NCBI GenBank assembly: GCA_015063585.1
Contig: SVTW01000022.1
Coordinates: 1 to 32,715, forward strand
Direction: 5' to 3'
DNA from: Oscillospiraceae bacterium
GTDB taxonomy: Bacteria > Bacillota > Clostridia > Oscillospirales > CAG-272
DNA: 32,715 bases
Shown: in pieces, positions 8,455-32,105 of the stretch
How positions within the stretch are numbered: position 1 is the first letter of the stretch
Layout: each line of letters starts with the position of its first letter
Program-made: the position numbers and the translations under genes
The notes under the pieces: model-generated
The model's input: only the letters and a program-made list of their open reading frames with translations
Database searches by the model: none
Told to the model about the DNA's origin: nothing

Positions 8455-8543
8455 TGGCGGAGGGTGTGGGATTCGAACCCACGTGAGATTGCTCTCAAAC
8501 GGTTTTCAAGACCGCCTCGTTATGACCGCTTCGATAACCCTCC
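8455..8543 (-). tRNA. tRNA-Ser (anticodon UGA)
   Basis: An 89-nt tRNA with a 7-bp acceptor stem (GGAGGGT with ACCCTCC), discriminator G and encoded CCA. The anticodon loop is CTTGAAA (anticodon TGA, reads UCA) on the stem GCGGT/ACCGT. A long class II variable arm (TTTGAGAGCAATCTCAC) fits serine. The T arm has GTGGGTTCGAATCCCAC. Its own promoter (8710-8738) and terminator are present. Confidence 0.95.
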
Positions 8544-8709: not shown

Positions 8710-8738
8710 ATTTTATCATAAATGGGGTCGATTGTCAA
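8710..8738 (-). promoter_or_regulatory. SigA promoter for tRNA-Ser
   Basis: On the minus strand: TTGACA, 17 nt, TAAAAT. It lies 167 bases upstream of the mature tRNA 5' end, leaving an unusually long leader. Confidence 0.8.
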
Positions 8739-8750
8739 GTGCTTTCCCGA

Positions 8751-8810
8751 AAAAAGGAGTGCATTGACAGAAAAAGGAGTGCATTGACAGAAAAAGGAGT
8801 GCATTGACAG
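8751..8810. repeat. Three tandem copies of a 20-bp unit
   Basis: The unit AAAAAGGAGTGCATTGACAG is repeated three times with no change. Each unit contains TTGACA on the plus strand. The A-tracts recur every 20 bp, about two helical turns, directly upstream of the tRNA-Ser promoter. The surrounding 8739-8900 holds no gene that I can support. Confidence 0.9.
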
Positions 8811-8902
8811 AAAACGGGCGATGCGATGTCTAAAAAGGAAGTGTAATACCGAACAAAAAGCAGGACATTCAAAAAAACAAGCGCGATTCAAAACAGAAAC
8901 AT

Positions 8903-9074
8903 GAGGCTGCGTCATTGGCGCAGCCTCTGCTCAAAAAAGCCGACGGTAGGCTTTTTTGTAGCACGGAATTTGCGGTTTTCGACTGCAAAGCAGTCGAAAA
9001 TTGCGGTGTTTCGCCGCAAAGCAAAAACGTCGGGGGTGAGTACCAAATGCATTTTTGCATTTGACTCACCCCCT
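8903..9074 (-). repeat. ~172-bp five-hairpin element, copy A
   Basis: Near-identical (only a handful of differences) to 30993-31164 in opposite orientation. Read on the minus strand from 9074: hairpin 1 with GGGGGTGAGT/ACTCACCCCC and inner CAAATGCA/TGCATTTG; hairpin 2 TTGCGG/CCGCAA; hairpin 3 TTTTCGACTGC/GCAGTCGAAAA with TTT loop; hairpin 4 AAAAAAGCC/GGCTTTTTT; hairpin 5 GAGGCTGCG/CGCAGCCTC. It starts 3 bases after the stop of the glycosylase gene and probably terminates that transcript. Confidence 0.9.
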
Positions 9075-9077
9075 TTC

Positions 9078-9575
9078 TTAAAATGCGTCCTTCAGAATTT
9101 GCCACGCCGCGTCAAGTCGGTCCTGCCCCCATGCGGCATTGGCAGGACTGGTGGACGGCAAACAGGTGGCTTCCCTTCCCGTTTGCGGCAAAAGATGCTG
9201 TTGATAGAGGCGGTGCGCGGTCTTTCCATTGGTGAAGATTCGCGCGATCGGTGCCGCCTGTAAAATAAGATGCACGTCGTTTGGAACAACATTGCGGATC
9301 GTGCTGTCCGATGAGCCCTCGATCTCGCAGGAGGCGATCACGTCCCATAGCGCCACGTGATGACGCAATAGGAATTCCCGCTTTTCTTCTATTGTGTGCG
9401 GTTCCCGATCCTCAAAAACGTGCGATAGGGTGCGCCAAAAGCGATTTTGCGGATGCCCATAAAAGAAGCCTTCCTCACGCGAGCGCACCGACGGAAAGCT
9501 CCCCAAAATCAGAATGCGGCTATCCTCGTGGTACACGGGCTTGATTGGATGCAGAATCAAAGTGTGTCCTCCCAT
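9078..9575 (-). CDS. DNA-deoxyinosine glycosylase (uracil-DNA glycosylase superfamily)
   Basis: A 165-aa base-excision repair enzyme of the UDG superfamily, hypoxanthine/deoxyinosine glycosylase branch. It would remove deaminated adenine from DNA. Seen: RILILGSFPSVRSREEGFFYGHPQNRFWRTL near the N-terminus (motif 1 plus the GHPQNRFW signature), LWDVIASCEIEGSSD in the middle, and LPSTSPANA near the end (motif 2). The ATG lies 2 bases after the stop of the upstream lipoprotein gene; a TTG at 9560 has a better-placed GGGAGG and may be the real start. It is cotranscribed with the lipoprotein. The five-hairpin element follows immediately. Confidence 0.88.
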   Translation of the reverse strand: MGGHTLILHPIKPVYHEDSRILILGSFPSVRSREEGFFYGHPQNRFWRTLSHVFEDREPHTIEEKREFLLRHHVALWDVIASCEIEGSSDSTIRNVVPNDVHLILQAAPIARIFTNGKTAHRLYQQHLLPQTGREATCLPSTSPANAAWGQDRLDAAWQILKDAF

Positions 9576-27696: not shown

Positions 27697-27852
27697 TAAA
27701 ATGATGTGCGGGACGCAGGGGGACGCGGGGACGCAGAGACGCGATTTATGCGGGGTCTTTTTGAAAAAAGGCCCCTGCACCCCAAAAACTTTTCCGAACG
27801 ATTTCTATAGTGTGATGGGGTGTCTGTCGACTCAGGGCTTAGGTACTGCCGA

Positions 27853-27886
27853 TTGCCGTCAGGCACCGCCAAGACCCTGCCGGCAC
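27853..27886 (+). repeat. 34-bp direct repeat, copy 1
   Basis: Matches 28249-28282 with one difference, and the similarity extends about 9 bases to the left. The pair brackets the 29-bp inverted repeat. Confidence 0.85.
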
Positions 27887-27913
27887 TGCCGATAAAGAAA
27901 AAACAACCCATGT

Positions 27914-27942
27914 CTTGTAGGGACCGGCGTCCTCGACGGTCC
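27914..27942 (+). repeat. 29-bp inverted repeat, left arm
   Basis: A perfect reverse complement of 28212-28240. It begins CTTGTAGGGACC and contains a small GGACCG/CGGTCC hairpin. The GTAGGG end recalls the palindromes at 354, 1071 and 5008. Confidence 0.9.
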
Positions 27943-28007
27943 AAATGCGATTATGTTAAGCACTGCCACCCCCATCGGCACTCGCGGAAAAGTGAGATTT
28001 CCAACAG

Positions 28008-28026
28008 CCTCCCTCCGGGAGGGAGG
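28008..28026. repeat. Perfect palindrome with following hairpin
   Basis: CCTCCCTCC-GGGAGGGAGG, followed by TTTTGC-GTA-GCAAAA at 28031-28045. Part of the repeat-rich interval. Confidence 0.65.
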
Positions 28027-28211
28027 TGGGTTTTGCGTAGCAAAAGCCGGAAGGAGCCGGCGATGGCTATGCCTTGTAATTCCCAAAAACAGGAATGACA
28101 TGACTCATACGCATGCTCTTTCCGTCACGACTTCGTCGTGCCACCATCTCACTGCGGCTCGGTCACGCTCGCGTTCTGACACCACACCGTGGAGTCATTC
28201 ATTCCTTCTTT

Positions 28212-28240
28212 GGACCGTCGAGGACGCCGGTCCCTACAAG
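28212..28240 (-). repeat. 29-bp inverted repeat, right arm
   Basis: Reverse complement of 27914-27942, 269 bases away. Together with the direct repeats it outlines a ~330-430 bp unit of unknown origin. Confidence 0.9.
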
Positions 28241-28248
28241 ACTGCCGT

Positions 28249-28282
28249 TTGCCGTCAGGCGCCGCCAAGACCCTGCCGGCAC
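28249..28282 (+). repeat. 34-bp direct repeat, copy 2
   Basis: Matches 27853-27886 with one difference, immediately right of the inverted-repeat arm. Confidence 0.85.
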
Positions 28283-28321
28283 TCGCGAAAAAAACGAAAG
28301 CTCATTCGGAAAAGTTTTGGT

Positions 28322-29501: not shown

Positions 29502-29540
29502 GCTGAAATCATTGTCAAAACACAGGAAAGGAAATTGAGA

Positions 29541-30986
29541 ATGGCATATAGAATCTATCCATTCCCGGATGGAGAACCGTTTTCCGATCTCTATACGGTC
29601 TCTGTGGAAGGAAATGAAATACCATGTTATACTGCCCGTGTGTCTGCTATCCCCTTTAATCGTTCATGGCCGGGTATGGAACGCTCTTTGGATCAAACCG
29701 AGATGGCTGCTTTTGTGACTCTGCAGTCAGACACTGCCGTTGCGCTGGCAATCAAGCCGTCACACGCCTTCACACAGGCAATTGTTCGTCCTCAGTCCGC
29801 AAATATTTGTCCTCGGATTTCAGGTGATCTAATCCATCTGACCGTCGGTCCCGGGCAATATTCACTGGAACTGGATGGTCGACATTGCAATCTGCAGATT
29901 TTTATTGATCCGCCGTCCCCTTACATCCGGAATGAGGATACTCTGTATTTTGGTCCCGGTATCCATGATATTGATCATCTGATGCTGCATTCCGGTCAGA
30001 CTGTTTATGTAGATGCCGGCGCTGTGGTATACGCCAGAACCATCCGTGCGTATGATGCGGAAAATATCCGAATCATCGGTAACGGTATTCTGGATTTTTC
30101 GCGGTATCAGCGTACCGTTAAGGATGTCTTTGTTGAGGAAGACAGCGGTTCTGTATCCTTTATCCGATGCAAAAATATTCATGTAGATGGTGTAATTCTG
30201 CGGGATGCCACATGGTGGACAATGACTGCAATCAACTGTACCGATATTTGCTATAACAACGTGAAAGTCATCGGTATGTGGCGATACAATGCGGACGGTC
30301 TGGACTTTGTGAATTCCGAGCATGTAACCGTTACAAACTGCTTTATTCGCAGCTTTGATGACAGCATTGTTCTGAAAGGTCTGAATAAGCGCAAAAACGG
30401 TGAGTGCCTGGCGCATTATGACTATATGAATGTCTGTCACTACCGTATTGAGCACTGTGTCGTCTGGTGTGACTGGGGCGGCGCATTGGAAATCGGAGCA
30501 GAAACCGTTGCCGATGAATATACAGATATTGTTTTCCGCGATATTGATATCATTCGCAATGCAGACGGCGGGATGCGGATTCACTGCGGTGACCGCGCCG
30601 AAATCCATGATGTTCTGTATGAACATATCCGCGTGGAATATACCGCATGGGACCGTGATTCCGTTTTTCAGCAGTCGGATGATACGGTATATACAGAATC
30701 CTCCTCCCCGCATACACCTCCGTTTATCCGGAACTGGATGTACTGGGGACCGTGGACACCCGGGGCGCCCAACCCGCACTCCATTCATCATATCACGTAC
30801 AGAGACATCCAAATCATCGCGGATGCAGGTATCCCCACCCCGTGTGCTTTATTCCACGGCACCGACGCAGACCACGGTATTTCAGAGATCCTCATGGAAA
30901 ATATCACATACAACGGAATAAAACTGAACGCTGACACGCTTCCCATCAATCAAAATCTCTTTGCTGAAAATATCACCGTAAAATAA
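29541..30986 (+). CDS. GH28-type polygalacturonase-like right-handed beta-helix protein
   Basis: A 481-aa protein with a beta-sandwich-like N-terminus (to about 120) and a parallel beta-helix with GH28 marks: NADGLDFVNS at 250-259 (Asp252), FDDS at 272-275 (Asp273/Asp274), GGALEIGAE near 320 in the place of GHG, and DGGMRIH in the place of RIK. GH28 enzymes cut galacturonic acid chains of pectin. The His motif is altered, so activity on another sugar is possible. AAAGGAAA precedes ATG 29541. There is no signal peptide. It pairs with the CE4 gene, which fits acetylated pectin-like substrate; that link is inference. The five-hairpin element begins 6 bases after its stop. Confidence 0.85.
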   Translation: MAYRIYPFPDGEPFSDLYTVSVEGNEIPCYTARVSAIPFNRSWPGMERSLDQTEMAAFVTLQSDTAVALAIKPSHAFTQAIVRPQSANICPRISGDLIHLTVGPGQYSLELDGRHCNLQIFIDPPSPYIRNEDTLYFGPGIHDIDHLMLHSGQTVYVDAGAVVYARTIRAYDAENIRIIGNGILDFSRYQRTVKDVFVEEDSGSVSFIRCKNIHVDGVILRDATWWTMTAINCTDICYNNVKVIGMWRYNADGLDFVNSEHVTVTNCFIRSFDDSIVLKGLNKRKNGECLAHYDYMNVCHYRIEHCVVWCDWGGALEIGAETVADEYTDIVFRDIDIIRNADGGMRIHCGDRAEIHDVLYEHIRVEYTAWDRDSVFQQSDDTVYTESSSPHTPPFIRNWMYWGPWTPGAPNPHSIHHITYRDIQIIADAGIPTPCALFHGTDADHGISEILMENITYNGIKLNADTLPINQNLFAENITVK

Positions 30987-30992
30987 TCAGCA

Positions 30993-31164
30993 GGGGGTGA
31001 GTCAAATGCAAAAATGCATTTGGTACTCACCCCCGACGTTTTTGCTTTGCGGCTATACACCGCAATTTTCGACTGCTTTGCAGTCGAAAACCGCAAATTC
31101 CGCGCTACAAAAAAGCCTGCCGTCGGCTTTTTTGAGCAGAGGCTGCGCCAATGACGTAGCCTCG
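30993..31164 (+). repeat. ~172-bp five-hairpin element, copy B
   Basis: Reverse complement of 8903-9074 with about six changes, the five hairpins being kept (one pair mismatched in hairpin 5; hairpin 2 loop varies). It starts 6 bases after the stop of the GH28 gene and reads in the same sense as that gene, as copy A does with its own upstream gene. Confidence 0.9.
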
Positions 31165-31196: not shown

Positions 31197-32105
31197 TCAG
31201 TCTCCTCTGCGAGTCCAATGTGAGGGCAGACAGCCTTTTACACGGCGGAAGGAGGACGAAAATGCTGACATACTTCCAAATCCCACCGCATAGCAGGTTT
31301 CCGTCACGCTCTTGCCCGCTTCGAGCAACTCAACGCTTCGCGCGATGCGGTAACGCGTGAGATATTCGGCAACCGACATGTTAAAATATTGCTGGAAGAG
31401 CCGCGAAACATGCTCTCTGCTGTAAAAGAATCGCGCGGCAACCTCACGTACCGAGGAAATGCTTTGATAATGCTCCTCTACGTAAAGCTTGAGGTCCAAC
31501 ACGTTTTGCGGCAGCCGTTTTGACGCCTCACGCGGAAGATCGGCAATGCGATCCAGAAAATCCATCAGCCGAATAAAAAGCGCGCGTGCCAACAAACGGT
31601 TTTTCCGCGTCCCCTCAAAGCACGCGTCTATTTCGGAAAGCATGCGCTCCAGCTTACTTTGATGCAACGCTCCAACCTCAAAAAATCCACCGCCAGCCGA
31701 GGTAAAACCGAGCGTTGCATAATCCTGCCCCTCATAGAGGAATACGTCGGGTTCAAAACGGAACACGTAGCGCTCGTAACAGCTCTCTCCAAGCAGGCGC
31801 GCGTTATGATATTCTCCCGGACAGCTCCAGATCACCGACATCTGCGGCGGCTTTAAAATACTTTGGTTGCATATAAAATCCACGTCACCGCGCAGATAAA
31901 CGATCAGCTCATAAAAGGAATGCGCGTGGTAGGCCTCGTCAAACTGGTCGCGTTTGAAATCGGTGACGCGGTGCGAATACAATAGCCCCTGCCCCGCCGT
32001 GTGGTTCGTCCACCCCAGCACGTGCCGATAGGATCGCCCTCCGCACCCTTCAATGGGAAGATACTTCCCGCTTTTTAAATATTTGCTTATTTCTTGTTCA
32101 ATCAT
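31197..32105 (-). CDS. AraC-family transcriptional regulator
   Basis: A 302-aa regulator with an N-terminal cupin-type sensor (HAHSFYELIVYLRGDVDFI at about 60-80) and a C-terminal AraC double HTH: ISSVREVAARFFYSREHVSRLFQQYFN and KSVTETCYAVGFGSMSAFSSSFRRVKG (each given as adjoining blocks). It probably senses a sugar and controls the divergent oxidoreductase gene or the CE4/GH28 genes. The Shine-Dalgarno is weak (GGATT region). Its stop lies 33 bases from the end of repeat element B, which reads toward it. Confidence 0.92.
   Translation of the reverse strand: MIEQEISKYLKSGKYLPIEGCGGRSYRHVLGWTNHTAGQGLLYSHRVTDFKRDQFDEAYHAHSFYELIVYLRGDVDFICNQSILKPPQMSVIWSCPGEYHNARLLGESCYERYVFRFEPDVFLYEGQDYATLGFTSAGGGFFEVGALHQSKLERMLSEIDACFEGTRKNRLLARALFIRLMDFLDRIADLPREASKRLPQNVLDLKLYVEEHYQSISSVREVAARFFYSREHVSRLFQQYFNMSVAEYLTRYRIARSVELLEAGKSVTETCYAVGFGSMSAFSSSFRRVKGCLPSHWTRRGD

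Follow-up and report, generated by a model that had tools for sequence, protein, structure and literature searches.

The stretch of DNA analysed here (the window, 32,715 nucleotides) carries two copies of a 172-nt element with five hairpins. We consider it probable (about 0.7) that this element is a mobile DNA repeat of the REP/BIME or MITE kind, non-coding and non-autonomous, which acts as a bidirectional terminator. Copy number, placement relative to genes, flank composition, a conserved structure and the terminators of relatives at four loci were observed directly; mobility and termination are what we infer from them. The features of the window are as follows.

8903 to 9074, minus strand: copy A of the element, 172 nt, two bases off the consensus of the aligned copies of its own genome
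9032 to 9073, minus strand: hairpin 1 of copy A (left end), 18 pairs in the fold; occurs as a bare palindrome elsewhere in the genome
8969 to 9025, minus strand: three-way junction of copy A, from the fold, with covariation in hairpins 2 and 3
9025-9021 paired with 8973-8969, minus strand: closing stem of this junction, from the fold, enclosing hairpins 2 and 3
9019 to 9001, minus strand: hairpin 2 of copy A, from the fold
9000 to 8976, minus strand: hairpin 3 of copy A, from the fold
8929 to 8962, minus strand: hairpin 4 of copy A, palindrome A6-GCC/GGC-T6, slightly extended at its base
8903 to 8927, minus strand: hairpin 5 of copy A (right end), from the fold, with a T-rich stretch after it
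9078 to 9575, minus strand: gene of the uracil DNA glycosylase superfamily (PF03167), upstream neighbour of copy A
8458 to 8543, minus strand: tRNA, downstream of copy A and in the same direction
30992 to 31163, plus strand: copy B of the element, 172 nt, 97% identical to copy A
30993 to 31034, plus strand: hairpin 1 of copy B, from the fold
31041 to 31097, plus strand: three-way junction of copy B, closing stem 31041-31045/31093-31097
31047 to 31065, plus strand: hairpin 2 of copy B, from the fold
31066 to 31090, plus strand: hairpin 3 of copy B, from the fold
31104 to 31137, plus strand: hairpin 4 of copy B, from the fold
31139 to 31163, plus strand: hairpin 5 of copy B; the scanner found no T-run terminator behind it
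29535 to 30986, plus strand: glycosyl hydrolase family 28 (GH28) gene (PF00295), upstream neighbour of copy B
31197 to 32105, minus strand: gene of an AraC-type regulator (PF12833, PF00165, PF02311), convergent neighbour of copy B

A sequence-only reading of the window had described two nearly identical copies, each right behind a stop codon and each with five stems. This was borne out. The identity of 97% extends over the 172 nt without a gap, copy A begins 3 nt behind the stop of the glycosylase gene and copy B 5 nt behind that of the GH28 gene, and the minimum-energy folds of both copies contain all five stems. Copy B is real and in register at 30992-31163, one base off the position given earlier (30993-31164). 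The arms of hairpin 4 are AAAAAAGCC and GGCTTTTTT in the window copies. The GCAAA behind hairpin 3 had been proposed as a competitor for hairpin 2; in the folds it pairs instead with a TTTGC located 5' of hairpin 2, and TTTGC/GCAAA is the stem which closes the three-way junction around hairpins 2 and 3. The fold energies were -88.8 kcal/mol for copy A and -85.6 kcal/mol for copy B, corresponding to z-scores of -10.2 and -9.6, and none of 200 shuffled sequences folded equally well. Folded as single-stranded DNA, copy A had a z-score of -11.6.

The window is contig C46 of the genome G000 (2.24 Mb, 99 contigs, 86.5% complete). A search of this genome with the 172-nt sequence, in which the best 40 of 153 candidates were scored, gave at least 45 places among the matches listed, 40 of them near full length with 97-100% identity. 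Hairpin 1 with both 10-nt arms exact occurs at 84 places (reversed-pattern control, 0), and a 14-nt half-site 99 times (control, 0). In 98 stretches, i.e. 319 kb of G000, we counted 108 hits of the element: 56 full copies, 28 partial copies and 24 cut by true contig ends. This confirmed that it is a dispersed repeat. The assembly breaks at its copies. Full copies had a median identity of 97.7% (minimum 80.7%), boundaries were sharp and flanks unrelated. Partial hits began with hairpin 1 in 24/28 cases, and the mosaic and partial forms in G000 comprised hairpin 1 alone, 1-2-5, 1-2-4-5 and 1-4-5, plus one tandem pair; a form with hairpins 1 and 5 was seen in other species. High-copy extragenic palindromes, mosaics and placement at gene ends are REP/BIME-like traits in the broad sense, and all are present here. 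Dispersion, near-identity within the genome, sharp ends and mosaic forms suggest mobility.

Two further kinds of repeat were seen. One begins with GGGGCTGATTCATTAAGATGCAG or a similar sequence and forms a long hairpin around GCGTAC; in G000 it is joined to the element behind hairpins 1-2, and a related stretch takes the place of hairpin 5 in the MAG RGIG6228 (L095 from 1530 onward, L320, the right end of L084, and L101). The other consists of bare hairpin-1-like or GGGGTGTCACAAATGC-type palindromes (L092 after 1588 in G000:C50, C37:18301, C15:42573 and C92:11306), several with A/T feet. These lone palindromes are apparent bidirectional terminators, and the element may have arisen from them as its ancestral unit.

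Next, the placement of the copies relative to genes was determined. Genes were called with a home-made codon-usage caller trained on G000, which misses some genes and all RNA genes. Both neighbours were called for 51 full copies; placement could not be assigned for 5 of the 56. Of the 51, 36 lay between convergent genes and 1 between divergent ones; the remaining copies had both neighbours in one direction, antisense to the element in 11 cases and sense in 3. The generalisation that the element reads in the direction of its gene is thus contradicted by the non-convergent copies. In the background 52 of 277 gene pairs were convergent (Fisher p = 8e-13). The background pairs were loci of relatives fetched for other genes, and their convergent share errs high because many of the relatives' convergent thrC loci are included. 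None of the 56 full copies overlapped a called gene. The nearest gene 3' end was at a median distance of 12.5 nt, and at 30 nt or less in 40/50 copies. Placement relative to genes, proposed earlier as a check, is accordingly non-random. A recount of the 51 copies which included tRNAs and chose the nearest neighbour according to its end gave 37 convergent, 10 antisense, 3 sense and 1 divergent; copy A moved from convergent to sense because of the same-direction tRNA downstream. In other genomes placement was looser, which speaks against the main reading: 57 copies with both neighbours called, low-scoring matches included, were 21 convergent, 16 sense, 15 antisense and 5 divergent, and 4/79 copies overlapped a called gene.

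How might such an element move? The two end hairpins share a short core behind a leading G-run. In 28 genomes, each represented by one element with its ends aligned at TG, the cores agreed in 6.36 of 8 positions within an element vs 4.96 when ends were shuffled among genomes; none of 5000 shuffles was as high, a p-value which is generous because the genomes are related. Paired cores are plain in several genomes (TGTCTCAAAT, TGTTGCA, TGTTAAAAA, TGTAAAAAA, TGTTTCATTTG) and differ more between the two ends in others, e.g. G012 and G113. The terminal inverted repeats of a MITE are thus represented by short co-changing end cores. The flanks of G000 copies have no fixed end motif. Target duplications were absent in 47 copies, with a mean shared end length of 0.30 vs 0.32 in shuffled controls. 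Insertion into a palindrome which leaves complementary flanks was rejected as well (2.87 vs 2.70 shuffled, p = 0.16). In genomes none of which was a close strain, no insertion was caught in the act, a point against the main reading.

The element might be the MITE of an ordinary DDE insertion sequence, the parent of which is missing from the incomplete assembly. The inverted, co-varying ends of the type GGGGNTG..CA would agree with this, and in an assembly of 99 contigs and 86.5% completeness an insertion sequence could be missing; no transposase with the ends of the element was found in G000. IS1182 elements insert into palindromes, which made them a lead for the mobiliser. IS1182 was absent from G000, however, and matched in 4/35 genus genomes, never above the family cut-off. 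Nine of the 12 IS1182 loci in the genus were inspected. At one of them, in G030 (L307 at about 412, G030:C10), an IS1182 transposase fragment which starts at the contig end is followed after about 220 nt by a GGGGCTGTCGCA-type palindrome; in the other 8, end patterns framing a transposase piece were not found. Furthermore, 98 of the 99 half-sites in G000 were read, and all are inside hairpin-1-like palindromes; in two cases the partner arm has one changed base. Together with the absence of target duplications this makes a DDE parent unlikely.

A Y1/RAYT transposase was another candidate for the mobiliser and was rejected. Y1_Tnp is absent from G000, as far as its 86.5% completeness goes, and does not track cleanly with the element in the genus. 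It matched in 6/35 genus genomes. Both Y1_Tnp and the element are present in G003, G018 and G020. G012 and G013 have the element without Y1_Tnp, G017 combines Y1_Tnp with weak element matches only, and G014 has a Y1_Tnp fragment and no element. Around the Y1 loci the element matched only once and weakly, next to a Y1 match that did not reach the cut-off. The test is limited because the MAGs are incomplete. That no mobiliser emerged from these searches counts against the main reading. Plasmids and phages gave no match to the element, nor did viral contigs with one pattern. In G003:C123 (L184, 410-863) a copy which is split by about 325 nt adjoins, as judged by eye, the apparent 3' end of a tyrosine-recombinase gene. 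Possibly it is folded DNA which takes part in the movement of the element.

The relatives were searched with a covariance model, R1, built from an alignment of 14 rows (with one wrong letter of 185 in row L056). It matched in 24 of the 35 genus genomes, G000 included, and in none of the other 11. At least 40 matches each were obtained in G000, G012, G003, G013 and G018, at least 74 of them in G000. In the sampled family 45/246 genomes from 26/71 genera had matches; the best E-value was 1e-10 or better in 21 genomes of 13 genera, and chance could account for the weaker matches. Such a patchy spread in genus and family speaks for the main reading. Twelve elements from other genomes, one of which has an end coordinate that cuts hairpin 5, were 51-71% identical to copy A in global alignments, and their folds read as the same five-stem plan. 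Among named GTDB records the exact core of hairpin 1 was present in 27 stretches of six MAGs labelled Oscillospiraceae and Clostridia (SIG678, SIG689, RGIG4028, RGIG6228, RGIG3976 and RGIG1023). According to their names the RGIG MAGs come from roe deer, sheep and dairy cattle; no source is named in the SIG titles. The elements of SIG678 (L098-L123) and SIG689 (L108, L110 / L242) are identical or one base apart, for which a close relationship, transfer or a binning error are possible.

Covariation in the stems had been proposed as a further check, and double changes were counted against shuffles. The alignment of 14 sequences, in which L101 was kept though its hairpin 5 is not alignable, contained 21 double-changed pairs vs 8.3 in shuffles; with the partners slid, 5-7 were counted. 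The stems thus co-vary, as seen in hairpins 2 and 3. The closing stem of the junction forms in 91.4% of the alignment cells, with 0/5 pairs changed on both sides. Helix 2 of the given structure, i.e. the outer three junction pairs, is poorly supported (65.9% of cells). In G000 we compared 81 sequences, 48 full copies and 33 pieces of at least 60 nt. They differed from the consensus at 1.64% of paired sites (153/9334) vs 3.50% of unpaired sites (105/2999), and contained 15 double changes which restore a pair, some perhaps co-inherited.

The stable fold, the covariation and a three-way junction retained through near-complete sequence change in the family would all be expected of a strand-specific structured RNA, be it a small RNA or a 3'-UTR element for stability or regulation, that had been repeated by chance. 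Mispairs should then reveal the strand. Yet an excess of G-U over A-C was not clear: 28 vs 20 in the genome's own copies, 31 vs 26 in 36 rows and 18 vs 32 in the 14-row alignment. Therefore, it is more likely that the structure is preserved in the form of paired DNA, or of RNA made from the two strands alike. Such a reading agrees with a bidirectional terminator or a substrate of folded DNA, and it speaks against a small RNA specific to one strand. In addition, copies occur in both orientations relative to genes, and in Rfam 15 neither window copy A nor one divergent relative reached a gathering score; the best permissive scores were 21 bits (48 needed) and 20.9 bits (191 needed). On these three counts the suggestion of a small-RNA family found no support, and we regard a structured RNA of any such kind as quite improbable.

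Does the element have the properties of a terminator? At least five T within 8 nt were present behind hairpin 5 in 29/47 copies vs 11/141 control windows, and at least five A within the 8 nt before hairpin 1 in 25/48 copies vs 10/144. Either tract was found in 37/47 copies. A bidirectional terminator has a GC-rich stem, an A-tract before and a T-tract after it, and lies between convergent genes; here this is a property of the population, not of every copy. A simple terminator scanner reported a terminator at hairpin 5 of copy A and none at copy B. That copy B lacks a T-run behind hairpin 5, and that both tracts are combined in only 16/47 copies, counts against the main reading. Of the earlier proposal of a mobile 3'-UTR or terminator module, the terminator part is supported, as the element is dispersed, repeated and located at gene ends like a terminator; a strand-specific 3'-UTR does not agree with copies in both orientations.

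A comparison with relatives was made at four loci. Behind thrC and behind an oadA-like gene most relatives have ordinary single intrinsic terminators, as read by eye, and G000 has the element. Without the element the convergent stops in the thrC gap of G000 would be only 22 nt apart (12 + 10). The V-ATPase D gene is likewise followed by ordinary terminators in most of the relatives' rows and by the element in G000. At the fourth locus, C25:38739, most relatives have a terminator and in G000 the native terminator persists beside the element, which counts against the main reading. Some of the relatives' rows at these loci have no clear terminator, and L283 (G012) has a different element-like hairpin. 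We then examined 33 convergent sites in G000 for other hairpins. Five had another one of -20 kcal/mol or stronger, one of these being a second element copy, 25 had none at this level, and at 3 one side was unscanned (gap above 400 nt). Therefore, most of the 33 sites probably have no terminator other than the element. At C48:22855, as at C25:38739, a terminator hairpin of native type has stayed intact next to the element. Both the sites with and those without a native terminator would agree with an insertion after which the old terminator was lost. Replacement may well extend to loci beyond the four compared.

The element stands in the place of terminators, without target duplication, in mosaic forms and once as a tandem pair. 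This would be in line with recombination or gene conversion between terminator hairpins with common AAAAGGGG...CCCCTTTT feet, without a transposition enzyme. However, many flanks have no such A/T feet, the intact native-type hairpins at C25:38739 and C48:22855 look as they would after an insertion, and the identity of the copies across many loci requires an efficient donor process, so that such an origin, too, has a low probability. A signal for chromosome organisation or DNA uptake (compare gyrase-binding REPs and uptake sequences which form terminators) is highly improbable: high copy number, palindromes and gene-end placement would be in line with it and such double use is known (PMC1852404), yet uptake sequences as described there have about 9-11 nt and generally at least 1,000 copies, compared here to a structure of 172 nt which, its parts included, has about 100 copies, and the element is patchy even within the genus.

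The mobile repeat with terminator function which we favour has relatives in several known systems. REP, BIME and REPIN sequences likewise are non-autonomous, high-copy intergenic palindromes and hairpin mosaics, and REP/BIME repeats are described as frequent between convergent genes (PMC1525189). The element differs from them by its length of 172-205 nt, five stems and a three-way junction. It also differs from GTAG-tagged, RAYT-mobilised REPs, palindromes of 20-40 bp with an unpaired GTAG at one end, in that hairpins 1 and 5 of the window copies have no GTAG foot, and from REP/RAYT systems, where repeats flank the Y1 transposase, in that a linked Y1 transposase was not found in G000 or at the Y1 loci of the genus genomes. 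In the main text of a REP survey the terms 'Firmicutes' and 'Clostridi' have 0 occurrences (PMC3733652). The same survey describes palindromic CGTC-tagged REPs for which no dedicated transposase is known, with stems of 8-9 bp, from Proteobacteria, Chlorobi, Bacteroidetes, Spirochaetes and Thermotogae (PMC3733652). CGTCG is present right behind hairpin 1 in 7/14 aligned rows, whereas the G000 element has GACG at this position, and the five-stem plan has no counterpart in the passages of that survey which were consulted.

The pneumococcal repeats BOX, RUP and SPRITE are typically shorter than 200 nt, and BOX is modular (PMC3049150); SPRITE is characterised as terminator-like (PMC10969869). They are enriched between convergent genes as is the element, with 15/30 SPRITE, 23/88 RUP and 16/86 BOX compared to 149/1949 repeat-free intergenic regions (PMC3049150, Table 1, two columns summed). 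Architecture and host are different, the convergent share of the element is higher (36/51), and a target duplication was not detected for it. The bcr repeats of Bacillus cereus are not known to have a transposase of their own. Bcr1-bcr18 comprise 100-400 nt, show features of mobile elements and include bcr1, with about 39 copies per strain, in the account of PMC6542083, a copy number similar to that of the element; the mobility of bcr is tied there to a TTTAT motif, whereas the element has no fixed end motif. Ordinary bidirectional intrinsic terminators have an A-tract, a GC stem and a T-tract between convergent genes (PMC1852404, PMC5381666). They are single, locus-specific hairpins, in contrast to one dispersed multi-stem sequence which takes the place of many of them. 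The element works like REP/BIME, CGTC REP, BOX/RUP/SPRITE and bcr1 repeats, yet fits neither the GTAG/RAYT definition nor a MITE defined by target duplication. It would be a small non-autonomous mobile palindromic repeat, the notable feature of which is a probable takeover of terminators.

We propose the following. The element consists of two end hairpins with a common short core, a central three-way junction and an internal palindrome flanked by A and T, and a putative enzyme would recently have spread it to many sites per host genome. Copies would persist mostly between gene 3' ends because there the element would be a strong terminator in both directions: the A-tract before hairpin 1 would serve one strand, the T-tract behind hairpin 5 the other, and hairpin 4 would bring its own A6/T6 tracts. 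At many convergent sites the element now appears to be the sole strong hairpin, and the ancestral intrinsic terminator would therefore have been replaced. A repeat which looks mobile would thus assume a central regulatory function at many loci of one genome, and the earlier signal can still be seen in its relatives, which offers a natural experiment on terminator replacement. The full-text literature searches listed no account of an element of this kind from these hosts. Conserved fold and free sequence point to a putative structure-recognising mobilisation system in uncultured gut Clostridia. A further-reaching idea is tentative and rather doubtful. The element may represent a family-wide mobile class defined by DNA structure, in which the five-stem fold with its three-way junction is kept while nearly every base is turned over, the end hairpins co-evolve with a putative non-Y1 enzyme that moves a folded single strand, and insertion occurs at host terminators, which are then displaced. 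If true, each species would use a version of its own to remake a portion of its termination landscape.

The window contains other repeats. Between copy A and the tRNA, at 8738-8817, about four head-to-tail units of the 20-nt repeat AGTGCATTGACAGAAAAAGG were observed, the first of them imperfect. They are abutted by a strong match to a sigma-70-type promoter (8738-8710, minus strand, 11/12). Near the start of the window a 67-nt direct repeat occurs at 98-164, 913-979 and 2419-2485, the latter two copies being 88% and 67% identical to the first. Finally, the stretch from 27845 to 28299 carries a pair of 59-nt direct repeats close to a perfect 34-nt inverted repeat.
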